Origin: Gemmatimonadota bacterium
Lineage (GTDB): Bacteria > Gemmatimonadota > Gemmatimonadetes > Gemmatimonadales > Gemmatimonadaceae
Assembly: GCA_027307165.1 (NCBI GenBank)
Contig: DAHUXM010000010.1
Span: 1 to 32,008, forward strand
DNA: 32,008 nucleotides
Reading direction: 5' to 3'
The notes beneath the pieces are model-generated. The model was not told the origin of the DNA, ran no database searches, and saw only the letters and a program-made list of their open reading frames with translations. Shown piece by piece: positions 1 through 15,797 of the stretch (the stretch's first letter is position 1; every line of letters starts with the position of its first letter). The translations under genes and the position numbers were made by a program.

Positions 1-804
1 CGATTCCCGAAGCGGGCCGGGCAGGGAGAAGATCCTCGGCGTCTCCCGGAACTTGAAGACACGGTATAGATGGAACTCCTCGCGACTATCCGACACCGAT
101 ACTTCCTTTGCCGACGCAAAGAACGGCGTCATCGATCCGAAAGCCGTTGTCTTCACCTCGATCAGTCGCTCACGGCCGTCCGCGTTGTAGGAGACGATAT
201 CGTAGCCAAGCCCATCACCCTGAGTCTTCGCCACGTGCTCGATGCGCTCAGCGAGAGATCTGAGGCCAAGTTCCCAGAGCCGGCGATGTTCCACATCGAG
301 AACGAACTTCTCGCCGGCGAGACCTAAAGAGGAATTTCGCGCTTCGCGCTCGAGGTAGTTCACGTTGCGAAGAATGGGGGATGACGGTTGACGCTGTTCG
401 TAGGTGACGTGTGCTCGGTCGCGCGATGGCGCTGGTACGAAGACGTCGTCGATGCTTAGCGGTTCTGCGAAGTCGAAGACCGGCGCCTCGACGATCGCTT
501 GGGCTAGTGCGACTATATCAGCGTGCAGATCGAGGTACACTTCGACCTCATCTTTCAGGAGTTCCTGATAGTTGCCGCGCGGCTTGTAGCCACCGATACA
601 TGGAAAACCGGTCTCGAGGAGGATCGCGCTGATGTTGCAATGTTTGAATTCGACCGCTTGCTCCGATCGATTGTGCAAAATTGCCTGGAGGTGGCGCCTG
701 TGTTCGCTCTTGTTGAACGGCTCGCCGCGGAACTCATGCTCGAGCATGACGAAGTAGTCCGCGACAGTCGCGGCAACTTCTTCTGAAGACCAGGCCTCAG
801 GCAT
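1..804 (-). CDS. DUF3883 domain protein, PD-(D/E)XK nuclease-like, 3' end cut by window edge
   Basis: The frame is open from an ATG at 804 to the window edge (268 codons, no stop), so the protein lacks only its C-terminus. Residues 15-85 form a helical N-terminal region with motifs typical of these proteins (NKSEHRR, EFKHCNISA, GYKPRGNYQ). Residues 160-262 match DUF3883, the domain also found at the end of the plant protein NO VEIN: GEKFVLDVE, WELGL, then GDGLGYDI and RLIEVKTT. D202 and E216-x-K218 sit where a PD-(D/E)XK nuclease would have its metal ligands. Family knowledge: DUF3883 proteins are common in defence islands and beside restriction systems. Here it lies at the end of a minus-strand island downstream of two decayed toxin-antitoxin pairs. 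Nuclease activity is an inference from the motif; no substrate can be named. Confidence 0.8.
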   Translation of the reverse strand, partial: MPEAWSSEEVAATVADYFVMLEHEFRGEPFNKSEHRRHLQAILHNRSEQAVEFKHCNISAILLETGFPCIGGYKPRGNYQELLKDEVEVYLDLHADIVALAQAIVEAPVFDFAEPLSIDDVFVPAPSRDRAHVTYEQRQPSSPILRNVNYLEREARNSSLGLAGEKFVLDVEHRRLWELGLRSLAERIEHVAKTQGDGLGYDIVSYNADGRERLIEVKTTAFGSMTPFFASAKEVSVSDSREEFHLYRVFKFRETPRIFSLPGPLRES

Positions 805-1033: not shown

Positions 1034-1330
1034 CTAGCCATTAAGCCGGTCGCGCCAGTACCCGGGTCGGCGATGATGATGCGCGACGGAGAGGATCGCC
1101 ACAACGTCGTCGTGAACCATGTAAACAACATCGTAAGGGAATCCAGTGACAATGAGTTGACGGGCGCGATCTCCTCGACGACCACCGACGTCTGGATGTT
1201 ATAGAACAATGTCCGTGGCGCGCGTCACTGCGACAAGAAAGCGGCCCCCGAGACCGGGGACCGCTGTTTCGTAGTATTCGGCGGCTGCGAGAAATTCATC
1301 GCGCGCCGCCGGATGGAATTCGAGAATCAC
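1034..1330 (-). pseudogene. ParE/RelE-family toxin, interrupted by nonsense codon 44
   Basis: Reading from a GTG at 1330, which overlaps the antitoxin stop as GTGA, gives one frame of 98 sense-plus-stop codons that matches the RelE/ParE toxin fold along its length. The N-terminus has FHPAARDEFLAAAEYYE and PGLGGRF. The C-terminal half has GFPYDVVYMV and the diagnostic VAHHHRRPGYWRDR. Codon 44 (1201-1199) is TAA, placed just before a conserved HP where family members usually have a polar residue. One substitution from GAA or CAA would create it. No frameshift is needed, and length and spacing are otherwise normal (about 98 residues). Intact members inhibit gyrase or cleave ribosome-bound mRNA. 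This copy should give only a 43-residue peptide. Confidence 0.82.
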
Positions 1331-1560
1331 CGATGGAGCCGTCGCTCGACTTCAGCAAATACCTCGGCTGCGGGGATTCCGGCCACCAATCCATTTCCAA
1401 GGCCATGAGCGCGCCTCTCGATCTCCTCGTCCCAAGCCGAAACAGCGCCCGTGTCGCGCTCTTCGATGCTTGCAAGGAGCAGTTCTGCGAGACGCGCGCG
1501 ATCAACGGATGGAAGCGCGAGAAGTTGATCAGCTAGCGCGTCTGCGTTCCGATCCACCAT
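1327..1560 (-). CDS. addiction-module antitoxin (TIGR02574/Unstab_antitox type)
   Basis: This 77-residue protein has the pattern of the putative addiction-module component family: an N-terminal segment with ALPSVDRARLAELLLASIE, then DTGAVSAWDEEIERRA and a C-terminal helix ending AEVERRLHR. Family members pair with RelE/ParE toxins and are normally degraded faster than the toxin. The ATG at 1560 is used; the stop overlaps the toxin's GTG (GTGA), so the two were translationally coupled. The antitoxin frame is intact although its toxin is broken by a stop codon. No DNA-binding motif of its own is obvious. Confidence 0.85.
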   Translation of the reverse strand: MVDRNADALADQLLALPSVDRARLAELLLASIEERDTGAVSAWDEEIERRAHGLGNGLVAGIPAAEVFAEVERRLHR

Positions 1561-2237: not shown

Positions 2238-2954
2238 TCACGACACCTGGAGCAGCCGCACGATTTGCGGGAGGTCGGAAGCCGTGATGATACCTCGAAA
2301 ACGAGGCGTAGTCTCACTACCGTCGGCAATAAGCAAAGCAGACAGCTCGCATCCTCTACTTTCGATGTCGGAGAAATACTCGATCACACGCGCAAGAGTG
2401 ATATCAGGCTTGATAAAATCGTAGGAGCGCGTATCCTCGGCGTATGAGAGAACGTTTTGAACTGTCGCTTCCCCTTCAGCAGCGCGCGAATCCTTGCTAC
2501 ATGCTCCGAACCATCGGGCGATCGTGTTTGTGGTCAGCAGGCCAACGAATTCCTTCCTGTTCATGACCGGGAGCTGGGAGAATGATTCGTTCAGGATGAT
2601 CGCAGCGGCACTGGAGATTGAGTCGCCAACCTGCACTGTTACAACGTCGGTCTTGAATCGCTCTCCGACAGTTGGCGGATTCGTAATCGCCTCTGCAATC
2701 CTGCCGATGGCCGTAACGGTGCTACGGTGTGGTTCCGCAATCACACGCCCACCGTCATGATGATGGACAATCGCGTTTCGGAGGTGAGCGAACTCCCGGA
2801 GATCGTCCTGGTAACGGTTAACCTCGGCGATCGTAGTTGCTGCCTGCTTGACTAAACTATGGAACGGTGCGCCGGCATCGGCGTGCGTACGATGGCGAAG
2901 GAAAATCTCGATGTGCGAGAAGGCGGTGAGAAAAGCATCGGAGTTCCTGGACAT
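2238..2954 (-). CDS. HEPN-like (RX4H) domain fused to paired CBS domains
   Basis: The protein has 238 residues and starts at the ATG at 2954, with GAGG about 10 nt upstream. Residues 1-95 are predicted all-helical and contain R59-N-A-I-V-H64 in an HLRNAIVHHH context. This fits the RX4-6H motif of HEPN ribonucleases, where the Arg and His are catalytic. Residues about 97-152 (VVTVQVGDSISSAAAIILNE, then a FSQLPVMNR and VGLLTTNTIARWF segment) and about 165-236 look like two CBS motifs, which as a pair bind adenine nucleotides. The gene lies 50 bp after hsdR on the same strand and is probably a distal member of that operon. Inference: a nucleotide-sensing, RNA-cleaving suicide or regulatory factor, analogous in position to PrrC/RloC anticodon nucleases in hsd loci. 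The HEPN call rests on one short motif. Confidence 0.65.
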   Translation of the reverse strand: MSRNSDAFLTAFSHIEIFLRHRTHADAGAPFHSLVKQAATTIAEVNRYQDDLREFAHLRNAIVHHHDGGRVIAEPHRSTVTAIGRIAEAITNPPTVGERFKTDVVTVQVGDSISSAAAIILNESFSQLPVMNRKEFVGLLTTNTIARWFGACSKDSRAAEGEATVQNVLSYAEDTRSYDFIKPDITLARVIEYFSDIESRGCELSALLIADGSETTPRFRGIITASDLPQIVRLLQVS

Positions 2955-3004: not shown

Positions 3005-6000
3005 TCACATATTGGTGATCGCATACACCATGTCGCCGACAAACCGCTTGAACGACTCGTTCTCAACGTATTGCTTGTAAACCTGAGTGTCTTCCTTCAG
3101 AAGATGCTGCATCACCCTGGCAAGCGCCTGGTCATGCGCCATCCGCGCGGTATGCGGGGTGTTCTCCTTCGCATTCCGATACGCTGCGTCCGCCGCGACT
3201 TGTGGCGCGATGTCATCACGAATACGCTTCGTAACTCGGTCCGTGTCCGTGAACAATGTGCCGAAGTGCTCGTTGAATGTCTTGAGAATATTGCTCAGTC
3301 GGTCCAACTCGGGGCCAGACTTGTGTCCGGCCGTATCCGTCGGCACGGGCTCGATCTCGGCGTCAGCATCCTCTAGCGCGATCTTCATCACCGCCTTCTT
3401 CTCGACCCGGTAGCTATCCATGTCGATCGCATCGAGAATACCTCTGGCTAGATCCTCTTCCTTGGGTGCGGGCAGCTTGGGCGTAAGGAGATCGAGAAAT
3501 ATCGATAACTTCTCCCACTCCACATTGCTGTACGGGATTACCGACGCGAGAAATCCATACGTTCGGCAGAACACTTTGGCGTTGCCCTTGAACTCCACCT
3601 GCGCATCCTCGTCAAGCCGCTCCTCGTAGACGACTCGGCACGCATCCAGGATCGGATCCAACTCGTCGCGCTCAGCACCGGCGAGAAATAGCTCAACTAC
3701 CGTGTCCACCTGCTCGGGCGCGTACACCTGGGCGCTGTCCAGCGCCGCCTTCAGATCGTGCAGCTTGTTCGGGTCGGTCTCCTCGGCGAGCAATGTCGTA
3801 CGGTAGTAATCCTGGAACGCGAAGGTGATCGCCTCGCTGTTGTTCTGGAAGTCGAGCACGAAGCAGTCGTGCTTCTGCGGATGGGCGCGATTCAATCGCG
3901 ACAGCGTCTGCACCGCTTTTATGCCGGACAGCGGCTTGTCCACATACATCGTGTGCAGCAGCGGCTCGTCGTACCCCGTCTGGAACTTGTCAGCACAGAT
4001 CAGGAACCGATACGGATCGGTCTGAATCTTCTCGGCAATCTCGCTGCTCGCAAATCCGTTGAGTGACGACTCACTCACCTTCACGCCGCGGTAGTCGTGC
4101 TCGCCCGAGAATGCAACGATCGCCCGATATGGGCTCTTGCGCTCGGCCAGGTACTCCTTGAATGCGTGGAAGTACTGAATGGCTCGCTCGATCCCACTCG
4201 TCACCACCATCGCGCGGGCCTGACCACCGATCTTGCCAGCGGTGATCACCTGCTCGTGAAAATGATCCACCATTATTTCGGCCTTGAGCCGAATGGCGTG
4301 GTCGTGGCTCTCGACGTATCGGCGTAGCTTTTTCTGCGCTCTTCTGGTATCGAACTCCGGATCATCCTCGGTCTTCTTCACCAGCTTGTAGTAGCTGTTC
4401 ACGGGTGTGTAGCTCTTGAGCACGTCGAGAATGAAGCCTTCCTCGACCGCCTGCTTCATCGTGTAGCTGTGGAATGGCCGGTGCTTGACCTTGCCGTCGC
4501 TGTCCGGCGGAAGCGGCTCTCCGAACATCTCCAGAGTCTTGTTTTTGGGCGTAGCCGTGAACGCGAAGTAGCTCGCGTTGTCCAACATCTTGCGCGCGGC
4601 CATGCGCTTCGCGAGCGCCTCGTTCACCACGTCCTCAGGATCAGACTCCTCGTCTTCCTGATCATCCTCGGCGGCGCCAAGTGCCTTGGTCATTGCGCCT
4701 GAAGTCTTGCCACCCTGGCTCGAATGCGCCTCGTCTATAATGATCGCGAAGGTCTTACCGTCTTCAGTCGCGATCTCGTCCAGGATGAAGGGAAATTTCT
4801 GCACCGTCGAGACGATGATCTTCTTTCCTTCTTCGATGAACGTGCGGAGGTCGCCGGAGCGCTTGGCGTGCCCAACTGTCGCTCCCACCTGCATGAACTG
4901 CTTGATGGTGGTCTGGATCTGGTCGTCCAGCAAACGCCGGTCGGTGACGACGATGACGGAGTCGAATACCTCCCTGTCATCACGCTTCACGCCGATGAGC
5001 TGGTGCGCGAGCCATGCAATTGAATTGGACTTGCCACTGCCCGCCGAGTGCTGGATCAGGTAACGCTTGCCGGCGCCGTTGGTATGCACGTCGGCAAGAG
5101 CGTGTCGCACGACGTCCAGCTGATGGTATCGCGGCCATACCTGCTTGCGCTTCTTCTTGCCAGTGCGCTGATCCCGTTCCTCGACGATCTGTGCATAGTT
5201 CTCGAGAATATTGGTCAGCCCTCCTGGGGTGAGTGTCTGCTTCCAGAGGTAGTCAGTCTTGAGTCCATCTGGGTTGGGGGGATTACCGGCCCCGTCGTGA
5301 TAGCCCTTGTCGAACGGCAGAAACCAGGAGCTTTTGCCGCGCAGCTCAGTGCACATCTGCACCTCGCTATCATCGACCGCGAAGTGTACAACGCAGCGGC
5401 CGAATTCGAACAGCCGTTCGCGGGGATTACGATCACGCTTGTACTGCTCGACTGCATCGGCGACGGTCTGCTTGGTAAGGCTGTTCTTCAGTTCAAATGT
5501 CGCGATGGGCAGGCCATTGATGAACAGACACAGATCGAGCGCGCGCCGTGTCTCGTCCATGCTGTACGCGAGCTGTCGCGTGATCGAGAAGCGGTTCTCG
5601 GCGTGCAATTGCTCGGCGTTCGCGTTGCCCGGCGATGGTGTTCCGTAGAAGAGGTCGAAGTGTACTGGCCCGTGTTCCACGCCCTTACGTATAACATCGA
5701 TCACACCGCGCTTGCCAATCTCACTGGAGAGGCGTGCAAGGAACTTGAGACGATTGATATCCTTCGGGTCGTCCGCATCTACGAGTGCGAGCTTGGCGAA
5801 TGCATCCGGTTGTGTCGCGCGCAGGAAGGCAAAGTGCTGCGGCACGTCGAGTGCGTGCGCACGGTCGTAGTCCTGCGTGCTACCGGCTGTGTAACCTGTA
5901 CCGCCATAGGCCGGCGGCCGTTCTGCGACCTGATTCGCGGCGACGGAGATTCCATCCGTCCCCGTCATGTGCCGCATGATGAGCGATTCGAGCCCTTTCT

Positions 6001-6019
6001 CGCTCGTGTCGGTTGTCAC
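3005..6019 (-). CDS. hsdR: type I restriction enzyme R subunit
   Basis: This 1004-residue subunit translocates DNA and cuts it when the target is unmethylated. The N-terminal nuclease domain shows D162 (LDLCLFING), E176-x-K178 (FELKNS) and the following EQYKRDR segment, the PD-(D/E)XK arrangement of HsdR. The SF2 motor follows: Walker A at 325-331 (SAGSGKS), DEAH at 429-432, motif III FTATPK, then the CADKFQTGYDEP and QTLSRLNRAHP motifs of the second RecA domain. A C-terminal helical region ends at 3005. The start is GTG at 6019, 15 bp after darG. It is the last classical subunit of the operon, separated from hsdS by the inserted darT and darG. No disrupted motif is visible, so it appears functional. 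Confidence 0.95.
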   Translation of the reverse strand: MTTDTSEKGLESLIMRHMTGTDGISVAANQVAERPPAYGGTGYTAGSTQDYDRAHALDVPQHFAFLRATQPDAFAKLALVDADDPKDINRLKFLARLSSEIGKRGVIDVIRKGVEHGPVHFDLFYGTPSPGNANAEQLHAENRFSITRQLAYSMDETRRALDLCLFINGLPIATFELKNSLTKQTVADAVEQYKRDRNPRERLFEFGRCVVHFAVDDSEVQMCTELRGKSSWFLPFDKGYHDGAGNPPNPDGLKTDYLWKQTLTPGGLTNILENYAQIVEERDQRTGKKKRKQVWPRYHQLDVVRHALADVHTNGAGKRYLIQHSAGSGKSNSIAWLAHQLIGVKRDDREVFDSVIVVTDRRLLDDQIQTTIKQFMQVGATVGHAKRSGDLRTFIEEGKKIIVSTVQKFPFILDEIATEDGKTFAIIIDEAHSSQGGKTSGAMTKALGAAEDDQEDEESDPEDVVNEALAKRMAARKMLDNASYFAFTATPKNKTLEMFGEPLPPDSDGKVKHRPFHSYTMKQAVEEGFILDVLKSYTPVNSYYKLVKKTEDDPEFDTRRAQKKLRRYVESHDHAIRLKAEIMVDHFHEQVITAGKIGGQARAMVVTSGIERAIQYFHAFKEYLAERKSPYRAIVAFSGEHDYRGVKVSESSLNGFASSEIAEKIQTDPYRFLICADKFQTGYDEPLLHTMYVDKPLSGIKAVQTLSRLNRAHPQKHDCFVLDFQNNSEAITFAFQDYYRTTLLAEETDPNKLHDLKAALDSAQVYAPEQVDTVVELFLAGAERDELDPILDACRVVYEERLDEDAQVEFKGNAKVFCRTYGFLASVIPYSNVEWEKLSIFLDLLTPKLPAPKEEDLARGILDAIDMDSYRVEKKAVMKIALEDADAEIEPVPTDTAGHKSGPELDRLSNILKTFNEHFGTLFTDTDRVTKRIRDDIAPQVAADAAYRNAKENTPHTARMAHDQALARVMQHLLKEDTQVYKQYVENESFKRFVGDMVYAITNM

Positions 6020-6034
6020 GCGCGCCGACAGGAC

Positions 6035-7093
6035 TCAGGCATTCGCTACTGCGCTCGAGTTCCGCCATCCTTCGGTCCGCAGCCGGTCCGCAGCGAGCTG
6101 TATCTGCGCTGGCGTGAACCGTTGCTTGCGCTCGCCCCAATCGTGAATCGCCGTGATGATCCGATCCGGATCGCTCGCTCCTTCCTGCATCATGACCCAA
6201 TGCACGGTGGCTAACAGCTCGAGACCGTATGGCGTCTCGAATCCGTCGACGAGACTGACGACGCGGTTGAACCGGTCACGCGTTACAGACGCCGTTGCCA
6301 GGAATGCTTCGGCATCTCTCGTCGCACCTGGCACCAGGGAGAGTTGCTTGTCGGGACGGTCCCCCCCGCCGGCGTAGCCGGCAATGAGATGTCCGTCTAT
6401 CGCACGCAGCACGTGACGGAGGTTCTCTGCATAGGGGCCATACTGCGCCTTGACGTAGCGGAGTTTCAGCGGCTCGCCTGATTCCTGAAGGAAGTACATC
6501 AGCTTGTGTACTTCGAGCAGAGTGATGAACGGATCCATGAGGGCGCCGAGGTATCTGTTCATCAATCCGACAAGGGCAGCGCGGCCGGCTGTCATTCGCG
6601 GAACGTCGGTGGATCGGTTGACGCCCTCGTTGGCCGCAGGCGAACGCGGCTCGAACACTACCACGTCGACGTCTGGCAGCTGCTCGAACGCCTGAACGAT
6701 GAGCGGGCGGATCTCGGCCCAGCTCAGTCCACCCAAACCGCTCCCGAGAGGGGGAATGGCGATCGAGCGGATCCCGCGCCGACGGACCTCATCCACCAGG
6801 GCGGCGAGGCCGGATTCGATGTCCTCGATGCGGCTCTTGCCACGCCAGTGGCGCTTGGTGGGGAAGTTGATGATGTAGCGTGGGGGAGCGAGCTCGCCGG
6901 TTTCATAAATGAACATCCGGCCCGGCTCGACCTCGCCGCGCTTGCAGGCTGCCGCGTACGCCTTGAAGTTGGCGGGGAAGGCCTGCTTGAATTGCAGGGC
7001 GATTCCTCGCCCCATCACGCCCACCGAATTGACGGTGTTGACGAGCGCCTCGGTCCCTGCCTGAAGGATGTCGCCGGTAGTGAATCGGATCAT
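6035..7093 (-). CDS. darG: DarG antitoxin: macrodomain DNA ADP-ribosylglycohydrolase with DarT-binding C-terminal domain
   Basis: Starting at the ATG at 7093 the protein has 352 residues. Residues 1-155 are a macrodomain of the DarG type: FTTGDIL, NTVNSVGVMGRGIALQFK with N22, and YIINFPTKRHW with K80. K80 occupies the same position as the lysine known to be essential in Thermus DarG. This domain removes ADP-ribose from thymidine in DNA. The C-terminal half, with LLEVHKLMYFLQESGEPLKL and YGPYAENLRHVL, resembles the DarG region that binds and neutralises DarT. An ATG 12 bp upstream (7105) is possible, but GGAGGA sits just before 7093. It lies 14 bp after darT and 15 bp before hsdR, so it is co-expressed with both. 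Confidence 0.92.
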   Translation of the reverse strand: MIRFTTGDILQAGTEALVNTVNSVGVMGRGIALQFKQAFPANFKAYAAACKRGEVEPGRMFIYETGELAPPRYIINFPTKRHWRGKSRIEDIESGLAALVDEVRRRGIRSIAIPPLGSGLGGLSWAEIRPLIVQAFEQLPDVDVVVFEPRSPAANEGVNRSTDVPRMTAGRAALVGLMNRYLGALMDPFITLLEVHKLMYFLQESGEPLKLRYVKAQYGPYAENLRHVLRAIDGHLIAGYAGGGDRPDKQLSLVPGATRDAEAFLATASVTRDRFNRVVSLVDGFETPYGLELLATVHWVMMQEGASDPDRIITAIHDWGERKQRFTPAQIQLAADRLRTEGWRNSSAVANA

Positions 7094-7097
7094 GGCT

Positions 7098-7103
7098 TCC
7101 TCC
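7098..7103 (-). promoter_or_regulatory. Shine-Dalgarno of darG
   Basis: GGAGGA on the minus strand ends 4 nt before the ATG at 7093. The upstream ATG (7105-7103) overlaps this motif and has no purine-rich site of its own, so the downstream start is preferred. Most other operon genes lack a strong site and rely on stop-start overlap, so an independent strong site would favour ample antitoxin synthesis. Confidence 0.6.
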
Positions 7104-7107
7104 ATAC

Positions 7108-7755
7108 CTAATAATACCAGTCCGGGATGACTTCGACAGGCGGGCGGTGGGTGGCGCCGGCTAGGGCGCGCAGGACACGCGATTGGATCCGGGTTGACTG
7201 GACGCCAACACGCTGTACCAGGCTCCAGGGGAAGAATCCCTGCATCAGGAACTCGGCCTGTTTTCCTTCCTTGACGTCGGGGTCGCGGAAGTCCCTCGCC
7301 GCAACGGCCGGCCAGTTGATCTCGTCAAGCTGGTCGATGGTGGCCCGGAACTCTGCGTACGCACCGCCGGCATTGGAGAGTGTGAAGGCCCATCGCCGGC
7401 TATTCGCATCGGCCCATCTGACAGCATCGTGAAAATCTGCTTCGAGATGGACGATCGGATCCTGTCCGCCGAGGTATGAGAGTTCCGGATGGTTCGCCGC
7501 GTGGAACAGATAGAGCATGATCGACCGCGGACCGAAGTAGAACGGAACGTACTCACCGACGTGGTCGCCTTGGTGGCACTTAACGGGCAAGGCGAGGCGC
7601 CGCTGTTTTATGCTCTTCATTCCAATCTGCGTGTGCGGTCCACCGTTGTGGAGCATGCCAGCATCTGACGAAAGTCCGTCACCGGCGAGGATTGACGGAA
7701 GATTACTGATATGCGTAATGTGATAGATTTTGGGCCGATCGGGTGGCCGGGTCAC
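7108..7755 (-). CDS. darT: DarT toxin, thymidine-specific DNA ADP-ribosyltransferase (DUF4433)
   Basis: DarT enzymes transfer ADP-ribose from NAD+ to thymidine in single-stranded DNA, blocking replication; in phage defence they stop phage DNA synthesis. This 215-residue protein shows the family landmarks: IYHITHISNL (10-19, NAD-binding His12), the KSIKQRRL segment (R52/R53), VPFYFGPRSIMLY (70-82) and KQAEFLMQGFFPW with the catalytic-type Glu168. Length is normal for the family. The start is GTG at 7755, overlapping the hsdS stop as GTGA, so toxin output is coupled to hsdS translation. The antitoxin darG follows 14 bp later. All key residues are present, so it is expected to be active and must be held by DarG. 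Confidence 0.93.
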   Translation of the reverse strand: MTRPPDRPKIYHITHISNLPSILAGDGLSSDAGMLHNGGPHTQIGMKSIKQRRLALPVKCHQGDHVGEYVPFYFGPRSIMLYLFHAANHPELSYLGGQDPIVHLEADFHDAVRWADANSRRWAFTLSNAGGAYAEFRATIDQLDEINWPAVAARDFRDPDVKEGKQAEFLMQGFFPWSLVQRVGVQSTRIQSRVLRALAGATHRPPVEVIPDWYY

Positions 7756-9131
7756 GCAAGGATCTCCTCGTCCTCGGCTATCGTCTCGTCGTCCATGTCG
7801 CTCTGATCAGATTCTGGTATCGGTTCATCCGGCAAGCGAGCCGCGGCTTCGCGTACATCGAGCTTGCCGGTAACGATGTCAGCGACTAGGCGGGTGCGGT
7901 ATTCGCGCAGAAGCGCGATCTCGCGCTCCAGGCGGATAGCATCCTGCACAGAGTGCGCGGTCGTACTGGCGATGTACGAGGCGATCTGTGCTTGTTCCTG
8001 TAACGGGATCAATGGGAGGTCGACCTGTCGGAAGTTCTTTTCGGTCAGATCCTGCCCGTCTCTGATAAAATCAGCAGTGCCTTGCAGTGCGCCAATATAG
8101 CCCCGTGATTTGAACAGGTATGAGAAGAAGTCAATATCGACGTCCTCAGTTGGTTTCAGAACAACGTAAGACGAGCGGATTGCTCCTGCGGTCCAAGCTC
8201 GCTCAAGTCCACCTTGGAAACTGCGCATGCTCATGACGAAGTCGTTACGTTCGACATGTTTGCGCTTTTCGAGGTGCATGGAGATTTTTACAACGCGTCG
8301 TGCAACCAGACGCTCGAATTCCTCCTGAGCTATCACTCCGTATTTTTGGGTGGCGGAGAGTTGCACATCACTCGAGCGCGCTAACTCCTTGCGTGAGTTG
8401 AACAGGCGCCTGCTACGTGAAAGTTCCCAATACTGTGGAATGTTACCCAGCCACGGTATGCCGGACGGTTTGAGCGTGACGGACGGATCGAGGCCACGAG
8501 TGACGGCCCGCTGGATGATGGCCTGCTTCTGCTCGTTGAGAAGCGCGATCACCTTTCGCTTCGCCCGGACCGCGCGCTCCAGACGTCCATTCGCCCAGTC
8601 CAGAAACCGCACTATTGCCGCTTGTTCGCCGGGCGGTGGCACCGCGACTGGCATCCTCTTAAAATGTTCGAAGTTGAGATTTTGACGAAGGCCAGATCCG
8701 TAGCCATAGATGGCTTTACTAGTGTCCCAGACATTGAGGAATTGAAATCCGAATTCCGGGTTAACTCCCGCAATCGTTCGTAGAGACAAATAGGCCGATG
8801 TGATGATACCGCGATCTCGCACCATGCCTACCCGTAGGCTAGTGTGGTCGTTTTGAAGATCGGTGGTGCGAAGGACAATGTCGCCAGGGTTCACAATTTG
8901 ATACGTCGCGAATGACTCTGGTACAAGCCCGTGGAACTTGTCCGCGGGCTTGACGACAATGCGCCCGTAACTGAGCGAGAGCACCGTCCTTTCTTTCATG
9001 CCGTTGTTGCGCTCGTGGTTCGGCATGAAGACACCAAATGCCGGTAGCAGCTTCCAATGCGCAGGCACGTTGCCGAGCCACGGCAATCCCGACTCCTTGT
9101 ATTCCGGATACGGCTTGAGATCAGCGATCAC
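7752..9131 (-). CDS. hsdS: type I restriction-modification specificity subunit S
   Basis: HsdS carries the two target-recognition domains that set the DNA sequence recognised by both methyltransferase and nuclease complexes. The 459 residues show the internal duplication typical of the family. The pattern GLPWLGNVPAHWKL near residue 14 recurs as GIPWLGNIPQYWEL near residue 220. Each heads a target-recognition domain and is followed by a long conserved helix: RFLDWANGRLERAVRAKR, and the IASYIASTTAHSVQDAIRLE region with the LLREYRTRLVADIVTGKLDV tail. The start is GTG at 9131, overlapping the stop of the GmrSD-like gene as GTGA, and its own stop overlaps darT. The two halves are dissimilar between repeats, implying a bipartite target whose sequence cannot be read from the protein. 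Confidence 0.93.
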   Translation of the reverse strand: MIADLKPYPEYKESGLPWLGNVPAHWKLLPAFGVFMPNHERNNGMKERTVLSLSYGRIVVKPADKFHGLVPESFATYQIVNPGDIVLRTTDLQNDHTSLRVGMVRDRGIITSAYLSLRTIAGVNPEFGFQFLNVWDTSKAIYGYGSGLRQNLNFEHFKRMPVAVPPPGEQAAIVRFLDWANGRLERAVRAKRKVIALLNEQKQAIIQRAVTRGLDPSVTLKPSGIPWLGNIPQYWELSRSRRLFNSRKELARSSDVQLSATQKYGVIAQEEFERLVARRVVKISMHLEKRKHVERNDFVMSMRSFQGGLERAWTAGAIRSSYVVLKPTEDVDIDFFSYLFKSRGYIGALQGTADFIRDGQDLTEKNFRQVDLPLIPLQEQAQIASYIASTTAHSVQDAIRLEREIALLREYRTRLVADIVTGKLDVREAAARLPDEPIPESDQSDMDDETIAEDEEILA

Positions 9132-11230
9132 TCGCGATCACCATCGCCCATCTGCCGTTCGAAAGATTGACGCACAAGGCCAATGACGTACGGTAGCTCA
9201 TCGAGAGACTTAAGGCCTACTTCAATGTCGCCATTTCCCCATCTCCCAAGGGCAGTCACGTCTTTGCACCAGTGTTTCGGATCATTGATCTCAGCGAATG
9301 GCATATTGATGCTAAGCCGCAACCGCTTGGCCTGCGGCACCACATCCACAAAGTTGGTCTCGGCCCTGTAAGCCACATAGAGCTTCATGAACTCCTCGGT
9401 CACACACGGATCGAGTGCGAGTACTTCCTTCCGAAACGCCTCGAACACCTCGCGCAGGCCGGACGCGAACAAGTGCGGATGGTCCGCAATGCCGTAACCA
9501 CCAGCAGATAGCGATTTCTCCGGCTGGTATGCACTTAAGATCGCAGGATCCAGCTTCGGCTCAGTCCACACCGGAAGCGCCTGATCAGCCAGATGCCTAG
9601 CGCGTTCCCGGATGGCGGCTTCGTTCCAATCCTCGAGCTGACCCAACTCGGCGTTGACTCTAAGGGGGCTCTGCTTGAATCCACCTACCATATCGCGTTT
9701 CTCTGCGAAAGGCCGGTCGCTGTACTCCGCGTTATAACCTGTGAGCGTGAGGTTGCCGAGCGTGTGTAACCAGCGCTGCTGCACTTGTTGCCAGTCCGGA
9801 CCTAGCGCTTGCTTCCAGGTTGCCGGCGGGTCAGGATTCTGCGGCAAAATGTGCTCAATGGTGTACTCATCGACTGGTACGCGTTCTTTTCGGCCGTAAT
9901 TCTCCAATCGGCGCAACCAATAACTGCGGCTCCGGAAGTTGTACAGATCGCGGGTTTGCAGCTCTCGATGGAACTCCTCGTCGCTCGGGAAGCGGCGATA
10001 AGATGGAAGCGTCAGAAAATGCGCCTGAACGCTCTCGAGGTAACGATCTTTCTTCAGCGCCTTGCCAAAGGTCGCGAACGTCTTGTTCATCGAGTTCGTT
10101 GGAATGGCACAAATAGCGCGGCGGAATACATACGCTTCGACCATCCGCACGCACGCCTCGAATTCTGCGGCTGTGAGGCGGCCGTTCGCATAGTCGTCGT
10201 ACAACTCAAGCAAAAACGGGTAAGCGACGTCAACCTTCAACTCTCTCAAGTCGCGAAAGGCGGTCGACAGGACAGGATCGCGTTCGCTACCCAACGCCAG
10301 GGCGCAGAAGTAACGCGCGAAAGTTCGGATACCTCTTACTAGTGCCTCGATCCCTGCATCCATTACGGCCGTGGTTCCGGAATAGCTTTTAAATGCTTCG
10401 TAAACCTCTCGTTCTCGCGGAATGTCGCCTGTACGCACGGTGAGGTAGTGGCGCATGAAGCTGTCGAACTGGCTGCCATACGCTTCCTGCCCAAAATCCT
10501 GCTCCATGGGCCGCCAGTATTCTTCGTACAGGCGGGTCTGAAGAGAAGGTTCGAGACCCATCAGGATGAAGTTCCGAATCAAGTCGGCCTGGCTCAGCTC
10601 CTTGCCAGTCGAGTTCATGCTCTCGAAGATGAGCTGTGGATTGTCCTGGTCGCGGCTAAGCGCAATGTCCACGACCACAAGCTTTGCCAAGCCATGACAT
10701 ACCGCACTCAGGTTTCCCTTCTGCTGAGCGATGAGCTCGGAGAACAAGAGAAAGTTCTGCGATACGCGTAGGGACGGCTCTTTGGGTGGCTCCGTGTGCT
10801 TGATGATTGCCTGGAGCGACGTGTTATCGGTCTGCGAGAGCAACAGTTTGAAGTAGCGATCGCCAGTCTCTAACGGGTTGCTCAGATAGTAGTGACGAAG
10901 CTTTGCTGCAGAGAAACCGTCTACAGGCTCAGTATCGCCAAGTGCCTGGGCTAGCGCTTCTATTAACAATGAGAGCGTGGTCAGGCGCTGCTGACCGTCG
11001 ATCACGAGAAGCGGTGCTTGGTGTGTGATCTGCGATAGCCCTTGCTCGACGTATACGATAGATCCGATGAAGTGGACTGCGATGACGTCGCTTGAACCGG
11101 CTCGCAGAATGTCGTCCCATAGTTGTCGACATTGCTTGTCTGTCCAGGAGTAAGTGCGCTGGTAAATCGGAATAATGAACTGCGGCGACTTTTGCAAAAA
11201 GCTCAACAGTTTAGCTTCAGTGGCTTTCAC
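9128..11230 (-). CDS. GmrSD-like DUF262/DUF1524 nuclease with DUF5655 tail
   Basis: This 700-residue protein has the fused architecture of GmrSD-type modification-dependent restriction enzymes. The DUF262 (GmrS, ParB/Srx-like nucleotide-hydrolysing) domain is at 1-220: IPIYQRTYSW, VIDGQQR at 76-82, then ESMNSTGKELSQADLIRN. The DUF1524 (GmrD, His-Me finger nuclease) domain is at about 440-515: YTIEHILPQNP with His460, then HTLGNLTLTGYN and FAEKR. Residues about 560-700 match DUF5655, a domain often at the end of such proteins. Family knowledge: these enzymes cut phage DNA carrying modified cytosines. Here it sits between hsdM and hsdS with GTGA overlaps on both sides, so it cannot be expressed apart from the type I system. 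The start is GTG at 11230. Confidence 0.9.
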   Translation of the reverse strand: MKATEAKLLSFLQKSPQFIIPIYQRTYSWTDKQCRQLWDDILRAGSSDVIAVHFIGSIVYVEQGLSQITHQAPLLVIDGQQRLTTLSLLIEALAQALGDTEPVDGFSAAKLRHYYLSNPLETGDRYFKLLLSQTDNTSLQAIIKHTEPPKEPSLRVSQNFLLFSELIAQQKGNLSAVCHGLAKLVVVDIALSRDQDNPQLIFESMNSTGKELSQADLIRNFILMGLEPSLQTRLYEEYWRPMEQDFGQEAYGSQFDSFMRHYLTVRTGDIPREREVYEAFKSYSGTTAVMDAGIEALVRGIRTFARYFCALALGSERDPVLSTAFRDLRELKVDVAYPFLLELYDDYANGRLTAAEFEACVRMVEAYVFRRAICAIPTNSMNKTFATFGKALKKDRYLESVQAHFLTLPSYRRFPSDEEFHRELQTRDLYNFRSRSYWLRRLENYGRKERVPVDEYTIEHILPQNPDPPATWKQALGPDWQQVQQRWLHTLGNLTLTGYNAEYSDRPFAEKRDMVGGFKQSPLRVNAELGQLEDWNEAAIRERARHLADQALPVWTEPKLDPAILSAYQPEKSLSAGGYGIADHPHLFASGLREVFEAFRKEVLALDPCVTEEFMKLYVAYRAETNFVDVVPQAKRLRLSINMPFAEINDPKHWCKDVTALGRWGNGDIEVGLKSLDELPYVIGLVRQSFERQMGDGDRE

Positions 11231-13539
11231 TTGGAACCGACCTTGAGCAAGCCATCTAATAGTCCGTCAGCCTCGCGCTCGATGGCCAGGATATCCGCGC
11301 TAATCTCTTCCAAGGACCGCAGCGGCTGTGGCTTGTAGAAATGCCGGGTGAAGCTGATCTCGTAGCCAACCTTCGCCGCATCCGGTTTAATCCACGCATC
11401 AGGCGTGTAAGGCAGCACCTCGCGTCGGATGAACTCCTCCACGCCACCGTCCTCCAGTAATGGCACCTGTTCAGTATCGCGTAACTCTGAGTCGGGTTCA
11501 TACTCGACGATCGCCGGTTTGCGATTAAATGTTGTCCCGAACAGGCCGTGCAGCGGATCCGCCTTGACCTTGCCGGGTTTGTGAACCCTCGCGATTACGG
11601 GTGGTGCTGTCTCGACGCGCCAGCTGACGGCCTTCAGGATCTGCTTCAATTCCACCGGAGGCAGTCTGATGCTGCCCTTGCTAATCGCGGTGTCCACCTG
11701 ATCGCGAAAGACGTTGTGGTCCTCGAAGAGCGCGTTCCCCACTGCAAACCGCAGTTTCGTAGCGACATCCACCAATCGTCCGTCCCGTTCCCACGTCTTG
11801 GGGTCGAGTAACTTCTTCAGCTTCTTTGCAGGCAGCCCCTTCTTCGTGTTGTCGCTCTCTTCGTCGTCGTCCTCCGCATCATCTTTGCCCCAAGCAGCCA
11901 GGCGTCGTTCAATCGCGGCAGAAACCTTCGCGAAGTTTGTGAAGAGATCGTCGCCAAACTCTTCGTAGAGTGTCGTGCGGATGTCCTCATCGCCAGAGTT
12001 GAAGCGCAGCGCCTCGATTGCCTTGATAGTGAGCTGACTATGCAATCGCAACGGACGCTCTACCGTGACTTTCCAGTATCCAAACGCGGCGTTCGGAAAG
12101 ATCTTTGACTCGGGCGTTTCCCTGAACTCGCGGAACGTGCGGTTGATGCGATCGATGTCGTCGGACGAGAGCTCGCAGTTCTTCTTACCGAGGTTCTTAC
12201 GGAGCGGCTTGAACCATTGAGTGGCGTCGATGAGCTGTACCTTGCCCTTGCGGTGCCCAGGCTTCCTGTTCGACAGGACCCAGATGTAAGTCGCAATTCC
12301 GGTATTATAGAAAAGATTGAGCGGGAGCGCGACGATGGCTTCGAGCCAGTCGTTCTCTATCAGCCAACGACGGATGTTACTCTCGCCCTGACCCGCGTCG
12401 CCGGTGAAGAGCGACGAGCCGTTGTGCACCTCGGCGATGCGGCTACCCAGAGTTGATTTGTCGTTCATCTTTGACGCCATGTTGGCGAGGAAGAGCATCT
12501 GGCCGTCGCTGGACCGCGTGACGAGTGACAACTCCTCGCCATTGTGCATCACCCTGAAACGCAGATCGCGCATGCCATCCTTGCCACCCATTGCCTCCAG
12601 GTCCTTCTTCCAACTCTTACCATATGGCGGATTTGCTAGCATGAAGTCGAACTCTTGCGCCGGGAATGCATCATGCGCGAGAGTTGACCACTCTGCGCCG
12701 CCGACAATATGTTCGGCGCTCTCGCCCTCGCCCTTCAGCAGCATGTCAGCTTTGCAAACGGCGTAGGTTTCGGGGTTGATCTCCTGGCCGTAAAGCAGCG
12801 CCTTCACCTGTTGTCCGCGCTTCGCAGCGATCGCGCCGAGGGTCTCCTCGGCAACGGTGAGCATGCCACCCGTGCCGCAGGCGCAGTCATAGAGCAGATA
12901 GGTGCCGGACTTGATCTCTGATTCGATTGGCAGGAATACGAGATTTGCCATCAGTCGTACCGCGTCGCGCGGCGTCCAGTGCTCGCCGGCTTCCTCGTTG
13001 TTGTCCTCGTTGAACCTTCGGACGAGTTCCTCGAAGACAGTTCCCATCGAGTGATTGTCGATGCCGGCCGGCGAAAGGTCGATGTTGGGGTCGAGGAACT
13101 TGCTTATCAGCGTACCAATTGCGTCAGCCTTGGACAGCGTCTGGAGCTGGTTCCGGAACTTGAAGTTGTCCAGGATGTCCTGGACGTTGGGCGAAAAGCC
13201 GTTGAGATAATCCTCGAAGTCGGCGAGCAGCTGCGCCTGGCTACCGCGCGACTTCAGGTCGCGCAGGGTGAACTTCGATGTGTTGTAGAAGGCCTGGCCA
13301 GCCGCATCACAGAGCGCGGATCGTTGTTCGGTGATGCGAGCCTCGTCGAGCATCTTCTTGGCCTCAAGTACTTGCTTCTTGGTCGGTTCCAGGACTGCGT
13401 CCATGCGTCGGATAACGCACATTGGCAGGATCACATCTGGGTATTTACCACGTCTGAAGAGGTCGCGCAGCACATCGTCGGCGATGCTCCAGATGAAGGA
13501 GACGATCTTATTGTGAGTTACTTGATCCACGTGGTGCAC
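11227..13539 (-). CDS. hsdM: type I restriction-modification DNA methyltransferase subunit M
   Basis: HsdM methylates adenine N6 in the target defined by HsdS. Residues 8-135 are the helical N-terminal HsdM domain. The methyltransferase fold follows, with SAM-binding motif I DCACGTGGML at 218-227 and catalytic motif IV NPPYG at 303-307. At 770 residues it is longer than the about 520 of the E. coli enzyme. The extra roughly 250 residues at the C-terminus (from about 520) include an acidic linker and a KPDAAKVGYEISFTRHFYKP segment seen in the long HsdM subclass. The start is GTG at 13539, with an alternative GTG at 13530; neither has a clear ribosome-binding site. It is the first gene of the operon, preceded by 485 bp without a gene. 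Confidence 0.94.
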   Translation of the reverse strand: MHHVDQVTHNKIVSFIWSIADDVLRDLFRRGKYPDVILPMCVIRRMDAVLEPTKKQVLEAKKMLDEARITEQRSALCDAAGQAFYNTSKFTLRDLKSRGSQAQLLADFEDYLNGFSPNVQDILDNFKFRNQLQTLSKADAIGTLISKFLDPNIDLSPAGIDNHSMGTVFEELVRRFNEDNNEEAGEHWTPRDAVRLMANLVFLPIESEIKSGTYLLYDCACGTGGMLTVAEETLGAIAAKRGQQVKALLYGQEINPETYAVCKADMLLKGEGESAEHIVGGAEWSTLAHDAFPAQEFDFMLANPPYGKSWKKDLEAMGGKDGMRDLRFRVMHNGEELSLVTRSSDGQMLFLANMASKMNDKSTLGSRIAEVHNGSSLFTGDAGQGESNIRRWLIENDWLEAIVALPLNLFYNTGIATYIWVLSNRKPGHRKGKVQLIDATQWFKPLRKNLGKKNCELSSDDIDRINRTFREFRETPESKIFPNAAFGYWKVTVERPLRLHSQLTIKAIEALRFNSGDEDIRTTLYEEFGDDLFTNFAKVSAAIERRLAAWGKDDAEDDDEESDNTKKGLPAKKLKKLLDPKTWERDGRLVDVATKLRFAVGNALFEDHNVFRDQVDTAISKGSIRLPPVELKQILKAVSWRVETAPPVIARVHKPGKVKADPLHGLFGTTFNRKPAIVEYEPDSELRDTEQVPLLEDGGVEEFIRREVLPYTPDAWIKPDAAKVGYEISFTRHFYKPQPLRSLEEISADILAIEREADGLLDGLLKVGSK

Positions 13540-14024: not shown

Positions 14025-15797
14025 CTACGAGGACAACGCCTTACGAATCGGTGTCATGATCTTATAAAAGCCGGCAAAATGCGCGTCGCCTGGAGTAGAA
14101 TGCGTCTTAAAGTGCTCAAGGAGCAGCCGCTTCAATTTCGCTTTGGCTTCGTTCCTCTCGTGCGGGTCCGCACTCATGGCGGCTTGGGCAAGGTCAAAAT
14201 TTGCGTTGTGAACTGCCTTCCGGATCTCTTCTGGCACGAGCCCTTCTATATCCTTCCTGCCAGCTGCGTCGACCCCAATCGGCAGATATTGCTTGGTGCG
14301 CTCAAGGCCTAAAATGTCCAGCGGCCGCCGGACGTCACGCTCAGCGTCCAAGTCGAACGTTAGAAAAAAACGATTGTACTTACTCAGGATGAATTTTAGT
14401 AACGTGACGTTCTTTAGTGTGTCCTTGCCGCCGTATGGAACGATTTCTCCATCGAACTCAAGGCGGTTGGTACCATGTGCAGGATCTCGCAGTAGTTCGA
14501 AGTATTCCTTATCAATATCACCTTCGACAAGGAGGATGTTATTCCCCTTATTGTTGAGCAAATTGCGCCAGGGTTCGAATTCGATATTGTCGAGCCCAAG
14601 GGCGAGGCCAAATGGCTCCATCCAGCTGTCCCCGCATGTGTCGACGACTTGCGTGTGTTGGGCGTCCTTCTTCACAACACACCGCTGAAGCAAGACGTTT
14701 GCCCCCGGGTTCCCGAGACTCAACATATAAGGGCTGTGAGTCGTCGCGATAACTTGTACTTCGAGTTCTTCGGCAAGATCTTGAATTACTCGTCCGAACT
14801 CCGCCTGTGCTGACGGATGCAAAAAACTTTCGGGCTCTTCAATAATTAGAACCGGAGTGATCCGATCAGAAACATTCTCGGACTGACTCGCCTGCTTGGC
14901 CTTCAAAATTGTGAGGAGCACTTGCGTGCGATTCCTAGTTCCACTCCCCCAATCATTCAGCGGAACTGCAAAATTCTTACTGCCGAGTGAAATATCAATC
15001 GGCATGTATTCCAGATTGAGCTTTGGCAGGGTAAACCCGACGTTGTATTTTTCCTCGAGTTTGCCGAGGAGAGCTCCCACTTCCTTCTGATGCTTCTTCG
15101 CTAAACCCTGCACAAAGCCGTCAACCTTCTTCTGAACTTGTTCGAACTGGGCGCGGTCCGCCGTTGAGAACTCACCCAATAGCCCACCAAATCCCCGTCG
15201 ATGGCGAAGCCGCGGGTTTTGATCCAGTTCGGTTGAATTATAAAAGAAGATAGCCGTGCTCGAACGAATCTTCTTGGCGATCTCGCTTGCTGAAAAGTCC
15301 TCAAGAACCTTGCCGTTAACGGACACGCTCGTCGAGTCGTCAGTGGAATTCGCAGTGCGAATTACCTGGAGCATCACTTCGAGATCATTCTGATCGTTAG
15401 CAATCTCGGCAAACTTGCTGATGAATAGAAAAAGACCTGTGTCACGTTCACGGTTTACGAGTAAACCGAGCGAGATGGTGATTGATTCTTCCGTCTTGTC
15501 TTTCTTCTTCCATGCGGGGAAGTCGTCTTTGAACGACACCTCCATATCGTCGCTGTAGACAAATACACTATCCTCTGGCAGGACAGCTCGTATTGCACGT
15601 ACAAGAGTCGTTTTGCCAGCATTGTTGCGACCGCAAATAGCCGAGTAGTACGACGGGAACGATAGGGTGATATCTTCGATCGTCCGGTAATTGCGCACGT
15701 CCAGTTTCGTGATTCGCATCTTGGGAGCATTAGTGAGGAAGGACTTCGATGACGTATTTGTGAACACTAGCTTGCCGTATTGCGCCCATCTATTCAT
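14025..15797 (-). CDS. OLD-family ATP-dependent nuclease (AAA ATPase plus TOPRIM)
   Basis: The 590 residues combine an ABC-type ATPase and a TOPRIM nuclease as in OLD and GajA proteins. ATPase: Walker A GRNNAGKT at 56-63, signature-like WGSGTRNRTQ at 283-292, Walker B LIIEEPESFLHP at 318-328 and H-loop TTHSP at 352-356. TOPRIM: E425 in ILLVEGD, D482/D484 in LTFDLDAE, and a DIEGLVP motif at 516-522. Known relatives block phage or process DNA ends. No UvrD-like gajB follows, so this looks like a stand-alone OLD gene. The ATG at 15797 overlaps the end of the preceding core gene by 8 nt, with AGGAGG and GAGGTGG upstream; Met27 (15719) starts the conserved domain but has no such site. By eye it is clearly less GC-rich than the genes to its right. 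Confidence 0.9.
   Translation of the reverse strand: MNRWAQYGKLVFTNTSSKSFLTNAPKMRITKLDVRNYRTIEDITLSFPSYYSAICGRNNAGKTTLVRAIRAVLPEDSVFVYSDDMEVSFKDDFPAWKKKDKTEESITISLGLLVNRERDTGLFLFISKFAEIANDQNDLEVMLQVIRTANSTDDSTSVSVNGKVLEDFSASEIAKKIRSSTAIFFYNSTELDQNPRLRHRRGFGGLLGEFSTADRAQFEQVQKKVDGFVQGLAKKHQKEVGALLGKLEEKYNVGFTLPKLNLEYMPIDISLGSKNFAVPLNDWGSGTRNRTQVLLTILKAKQASQSENVSDRITPVLIIEEPESFLHPSAQAEFGRVIQDLAEELEVQVIATTHSPYMLSLGNPGANVLLQRCVVKKDAQHTQVVDTCGDSWMEPFGLALGLDNIEFEPWRNLLNNKGNNILLVEGDIDKEYFELLRDPAHGTNRLEFDGEIVPYGGKDTLKNVTLLKFILSKYNRFFLTFDLDAERDVRRPLDILGLERTKQYLPIGVDAAGRKDIEGLVPEEIRKAVHNANFDLAQAAMSADPHERNEAKAKLKRLLLEHFKTHSTPGDAHFAGFYKIMTPIRKALSS

Follow-up and report, generated by a model that had tools for sequence, protein, structure and literature searches.

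A predicted CBS-gated HEPN protein next to hsdR

The window analysed here, a stretch of 32,008 nucleotides from a Gemmatimonadota bacterium, carries at positions 2238..2954 (minus strand) a gene for a small protein that joins an N-terminal HEPN-like domain to a C-terminal pair of CBS domains. As cargo, the gene occupies an exchangeable slot beside a composite type I restriction-modification (R-M) operon, in an island of a known kind. On balance, we favour the interpretation that it encodes a single-protein, nucleotide-gated HEPN RNase that would act as an anti-phage arm independent of this operon.

The open reading frame is a real gene for 238 amino acids with an ATG start, and it is present as a single copy in its own genome. 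As the earlier note had claimed, it directly follows hsdR (3005..6019, minus strand; HSDR_N, 5.1e-20) in transcription order and direction; its ATG lies 50 nt past the hsdR stop codon, and a GAGG is found 9 nt upstream of the ATG.

The predicted HEPN domain

HEPN domains are characterized by an Rx4-6H motif, in which the arginine is followed by a polar residue and which is located at the end of helix 3, and by a second motif, Ex3[KR] (PMC3710099). The earlier note had recognized R59-x4-H64 in a helical N-terminus, and R59, N60 and H64 are indeed found there, forming the predicted catalytic motif R59-N60-x3-H64 (2763..2780, minus strand), while E16-x3-R20 (2895..2909, minus strand) fits the second motif. 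Among homologues covering the respective positions that were retrieved by searches not selecting on the motif, R59 (38/38), N60 (38/38) and H64 (39/39) are invariant, as the earlier note had anticipated for R59 and H64, whereas A61, I62 and V63 vary; the conservation of RNx3H is therefore more than would be expected by chance. Position 16 is E or D in 36 of 37 homologues and position 20 is R or K in 30 of 37. The motif-blind set comprises tblastn matches to plasmids and phage records as well as matches from protein and HMM or profile searches of whole genomes; the profile behind part of these searches had some pattern-selected sequences among its sources, yet does not itself demand the motif. 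Eighty further loci, selected from a scan of genome_contigs by the pattern [AR][DQH]LRNAIVH, served for alignments, context and structure and were left out of the motif-conservation counts.

An AlphaFold2 model of the full-length protein, built from an alignment of 34 sequences, has a mean pLDDT of 93.1 and a pTM of 0.86, and residues 1-96 modelled alone have a pLDDT of 88.8. Residues 1-95 (2670..2954, minus strand) are predicted to form a four-helix domain (helices at residues 4-23, 31-47, which is broken, 49-64 and 77-91) in which R59 and H64 are located at the end of the third helix, in agreement with the fold that the earlier note had suspected. When Foldseek candidates were compared with residues 1-96 by VIA-align, the seven best structural neighbours included six HEPN chains; the best rows were 1wwp (Z 9.1), an MNT-associated HEPN protein (PMC3710099), MntA-HepT entries (Z 8.0-8.1), 5yep (Z 7.8) and the HEPN domain of sacsin (Z 7.6), with Csm6 (Z 4.9) and Csx28 (Z 2.4) further down. 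For a helical bundle, a type of fold for which the tool itself advises caution, such Z values are modest, and the weight therefore rests on the agreement between the motif, its position in the helix and the fact that almost all of the top rows are HEPN proteins. A Foldseek search restricted to the HEPN domain yielded no significant match.

At the sequence level, a HEPN domain is not called for this protein by Pfam, NCBIfam or PADLOC, and Pfam leaves residues 1-95 blank. Weak Pfam HEPN matches recur among 37 family members (RiboL-PSP in 11, HepT-like in 6, Apea in 4), but no curated HEPN profile reaches its cut-off in any of them, the best E value being 0.005, and a profile search of the HEPN part against PDB sequences returned chance matches only, e.g. 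to TrwJ and bacterioferritin. HepT of the HepT-MntA (HEPN-MNT) toxin-antitoxin systems, which is among the best structural neighbours, is neutralized by a separate nucleotidyltransferase, whereas the putative control module of the window protein is the fused CBS pair; no adjacent MNT antitoxin gene was found, the neighbours being hsdR, a DUF2283 gene and small ORFs without MNT match. Taken together with the CBS pair described below, the motif and the predicted fold make a CBS-gated HEPN ribonuclease a well-supported prediction.

The CBS pair and its relation to DS-11

The CBS pair that the earlier note had placed in the C-terminal part was confirmed by Pfam (residues 97-236; 2247..2666, minus strand; PF00571, 1.8e-10, in two stretches), and Foldseek with the whole protein matched CBS pairs with bound AMP, ADP or ATP. 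The protein thus contains the two CBS motifs expected of a Bateman module. The canonical ribose/phosphate motif G-h-x-T-x-x-D is found in CBS2 only, where it reads G221-I-I-T-A-S-D227 (2274..2294, minus strand) and is retained in the family as G-I-x-T-x-x-D (D227 in 39 of 40 homologues, G221 in 38 of 40); the corresponding position of CBS1, 144, is almost never D. An aromatic residue (F or Y) is present in 40 of 40 homologues at position 125 of CBS1, shortly ahead of S-Q-x-P; in the window protein it is F125 (2580..2582, minus strand).

These features recall DS-11, which has been described as a lone CBS-controlled HEPN defence protein (PMC13092281) and in which mutation of the HEPN catalytic residues or of Y157 in the CBS region abolishes phage defence (PMC13092281; Science 2026). 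DS-11 originates from DefensePredictor and is represented in NCBIfam by NF053863 ('CBS domain-containing anti-phage protein'; model cut-off 260 bits). Both DS-11 and the window protein are single proteins combining a CBS pair with a HEPN domain that contains RNx3H; both DS-11 and the window family have the CBS1 motif [FY]SQ[LI]PV with an aromatic residue at the Y157 position, and DS-11 relatives share with the window family a CBS1 without and a CBS2 with the ribose-binding aspartate. Y157 is predicted to contact the adenine base (PMC13092281). In a homologue of DS-11 from E. coli, counting from the ATG leads to the tyrosine of DYSQLPV as residue 157, and if this residue is the Y157 needed for defence, F125 is its likely counterpart, a mapping that follows the ORF numbering of the E. 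coli homologue rather than the published sequence. We do not claim that an aromatic residue at this position is unique to DS-11 and the window family.

The window protein is nevertheless not a member of DS-11. DS-11 consists of an N-terminal extension, the CBS pair and a C-terminal HEPN domain, with approximately 365 amino acids in the E. coli homologue, whereas in the 238 amino acids of the window protein the HEPN domain comes first and the CBS pair follows. Its match to NF053863 amounts to 30.5 bits, restricted to the CBS region and far below the cut-off, and a profile comparison detected no similarity between the HEPN domains of the window family and of DS-11. HEPN-CBS fusions were noted already by Anantharaman et al. 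in 2013 and predicted to be ligand-controlled RNases; few examples were named, including one from P. propionicus, and some carried an HD domain (PMC3710099). The idea of a CBS-gated HEPN effector, put forward in the earlier note, has thus gained a proven example with an identical parts list in DS-11, but the accompanying claim of novelty does not hold, as such fusions have been known since 2013 and DS-11 was validated in 2026. The window family does differ from these earlier proteins in domain order, size and breadth, and it is unnamed in the Pfam, NCBIfam and PADLOC models searched.

An exchangeable slot in a defence island

In transcription order, the island comprises hsdM, GmrSD-DUF5655, hsdS, darT and darG (together 6035..13539, minus strand), then hsdR and finally the HEPN-CBS gene. 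On the 3' side of the latter follow a DUF2283 gene, an antitoxin gene of the Unstab_antitox type accompanied by a toxin frame that appears truncated, and a NOV_C/PDC-S36 gene. The antitoxin gene overlaps a toxin-like frame of 43 amino acids (1199-1560, minus strand), and the two appear to be a decayed toxin-antitoxin pair. The NOV_C protein (1-804, minus strand, running off the contig end) is the PADLOC candidate PDC-S36. On the other side of the operon, an AAA ATPase (14025-15797, minus strand) has AriA/Old/GajA-type PADLOC matches; LPG_synthase_C and other non-defence genes come next, so that it has no obvious partner. The HEPN-CBS gene itself has no PADLOC match.

The same operon layout, with DarTG between hsdS and hsdR, is found in the RptR-RMS-DarTG-M48 island of EPEC, where this insertion site has been described as a potential recombination hotspot for defence systems; no HEPN-CBS gene is reported for that island, which has a metallopeptidase gene downstream (PMC12255303). 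A Meiothermus plasmid (L178) shows the same hsdM-DUF262-hsdS-DarT-DarG-hsdR order, with genes for an AAA ATPase and a DUF4276 protein before hsdR and likewise without HEPN-CBS. In related hsd operons of the phylum, the cargo in the hsdM-hsdS and hsdS-hsdR intervals differs.

All eight hsd operons that were fetched from the phylum, whose hsdR is 62-90% identical to that of the window, lack the HEPN-CBS gene, and two genomes (G001 and G034) have no copy anywhere. One of the eight operons belongs to the same genus and lacks the gene in spite of 90% identity in hsdR and 89% in darG. Compared with this operon, the DNA of the window is collinear through hsdR; collinearity is lost at the hsdR 3' end and returns within the NOV_C gene, and approximately 2.2 kb including the HEPN-CBS gene are replaced there by unrelated DNA with P5CR-like and MarR-like ORFs. 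On its far side, the exchangeable slot is delimited by the NOV_C flank, which is homologous in the same-genus genome.

The family in other genomes

Homologues are 27-43% identical over nearly the full length and occur in many phyla; the 80 pattern-selected loci belong to Bacillota, Bacteroidota, Chloroflexota, Acidobacteriota, Myxococcota, Nitrospirota, Pseudomonadota and others. Within the phylum of the window, a full-type match was found in 2 of 395 genomes. The tree left the position of the window protein unresolved. No relatives were found in the viral_contigs collection. Two homologues came from records named as Enterococcus and Listeria phages (L007 and L008); these records carry bacterial genes (lspA and rluD in both, fhs and pyrR in L007), are read here as bacterial chromosome and resemble bacterial contamination.

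The closest homologue (L020, 43%) belongs to another type I operon, in which it is placed between hsdS and hsdR; hsdM is found on the same contig approximately 9.5 kb upstream, and genes for AlbA and PDC-M54B lie in between. Two others lie inside SNF2-helicase/methylase clusters (L024 and L047), one adjoins Gabija (L022), and plasmid copies are mostly found near R-M or SIR2-DUF87 genes. Several plasmid copies are truncated or broken: that of a Corynebacterium glutamicum plasmid (L004, 11950-12561) has an internal stop and lacks the N-terminal helices, and that of a Rhodococcus ruber plasmid (L006, 9670-10104) is cut short beside an IS21 element; both are decayed. Most homologues, however, are found in non-defence, housekeeping contexts such as those of lspA and miaA. 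Enterococcaceae copies are located in lspA-rluD-pyrR, Lysinibacillus copies by an ABC transporter gene and Bacteroidales copies by miaA, and others adjoin genes for glycosidases, MatE, a P-type ATPase or an AA_kinase-PUA protein. In four Bacteroidales loci (L068, L072, L073 and L074) the gene directly follows, in conserved order, a miaA-like tRNA isopentenyltransferase gene, annotated as such in L073. Among 41 homologue genomes, that of L020 is the only one in which a PF02384 methylase is listed close to the homologue, and L024 and L047 add two methylase neighbours by direct annotation; an enrichment of R-M neighbours is suggestive but limited.

Possible roles

In the mechanism that we favour, the N-terminal HEPN domain, with R59, N60, H64 and the E16-x3-R20 motif, would be a ribonuclease that is probably active as a dimer. 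The CBS pair would bind an adenine nucleotide or a derivative through the intact CBS2 site and thereby control the HEPN pair. Phage infection would change this ligand, upon which RNA would be cut and the infected cell stopped, and the gene would have been acquired as exchangeable cargo beside the hsdM-GmrSD-hsdS-DarT-DarG-hsdR operon, most likely adding an anti-phage arm of its own. A role in defence is plausible because both domains are required in DS-11, and the surrounding defence genes (hsdM/S/R, DarTG, GmrSD and NOV_C/PDC-S36) and the location of L020 speak for it as well, while the missing PADLOC match and the non-defence contexts of most homologues speak against it.

The earlier note had suggested a partnership with hsdR after the model of PrrC and RloC, which it regarded as HEPN nucleases kept silent by type I systems. 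This is correct only for PrrC, whose silencing is due to a linked type I enzyme; RloC has no link to R-M genes, and it is its own ABC domain that keeps it inactive (PMC3710099). In a PrrC-like arrangement, the HsdRMS complex would bind and silence the HEPN protein until phage anti-restriction releases it. The gene does lie directly 3' of hsdR in the same direction, a HEPN RNase gene is linked to hsd genes as in PrrC/PrrI, for which a precedent thus exists (PMC3710099), and the L020 homologue is inserted between hsdS and hsdR. However, linkage to type I R-M, conserved for PrrC, is found here in the window and L020 and is absent from the eight related operons, and genomes G001 and G034 have no copy at all; among the 41 homologue genomes, listings of a PF02384 methylase near the homologue are likewise confined to L020. 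Moreover, PrrC has an N-terminal ABC NTPase in addition to its regulatory link to the type I enzyme, while the window protein has neither this domain nor the Rad50-like ABC domain of RloC and instead brings its own predicted sensor. With the slot being exchangeable and most homologues residing among housekeeping genes, we have largely rejected a silencing partnership of the PrrC type, which appears very improbable. Hardly more probable is a HEPN-like fold without RNase activity, serving for RNA binding or dimerization only in what would be a CBS-type regulator. The failure of all curated HEPN models to reach their cut-offs would be in line with it, and some HEPN domains are non-catalytic (PMC3710099); yet HEPN domains presumed inactive have lost Rx4-6H, whereas no residues of this family are more conserved than R, N and H.

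The main rival, owing to the widespread housekeeping contexts, is a physiological RNA switch: a nucleotide-gated RNase with a general task, e.g. slowing of translation or RNA turnover under energy or nucleotide stress, whose proximity to hsdR would be incidental. We regard this as possible. It is consistent with the conserved neighbourhoods in Enterococcaceae, Lysinibacillus and Bacteroidales, where R, N and H are intact, and with the exchangeability of the slot behind hsdR. Judging by the order of locus tags, the Enterococcus faecalis CBS protein EF1724 may be a copy of this family, in which case its importance for fitness would also speak for a physiological role; yet family homologues were found here in Vagococcus. 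EF1724 is kept in 24 of 24 enterococci, is important for fitness in rich medium and is listed as distinguishing enterococci from Vagococcus (PMC7701990). On the other hand, the family is rare in the phylum of the window, and plasmid carriage near R-M genes and the location of L020 inside a type I operon fit mobile defence cargo better in the present case.

Both roles might be combined in one family. We tentatively suggest that a large family of CBS-gated ribonucleases with the HEPN domain in first place, so far without a name, is spread across bacteria. It would serve as a resident nucleotide-sensing RNA switch in Bacilli and Bacteroidales and, independently of DS-11 with its reversed order, would elsewhere have been recruited repeatedly as an effector that senses infection, at loci of type I R-M, SNF2/methylase and Gabija. 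A second family with the parts of DS-11 in reversed order, approximately 235 amino acids long and present in many phyla, would make the fusion of a CBS sensor with a HEPN RNase a recurring solution and would offer small, testable proteins for a ligand search, and the housekeeping copies in Bacilli allow one to ask whether an immune effector arose from a metabolic RNA switch or vice versa.

Two minor observations concern the tree. A sequence titled Arthrobacter beigongshangensis (L058) groups with the Lysinibacillus/Planococcus copies and shares their upstream genes, which makes its name or assembly suspect. Seven divergent sequences (L117-L122 and L131) form a well-separated branch with H or another residue at the position of Q127 and Y at that of W148, while RNx3H is retained.
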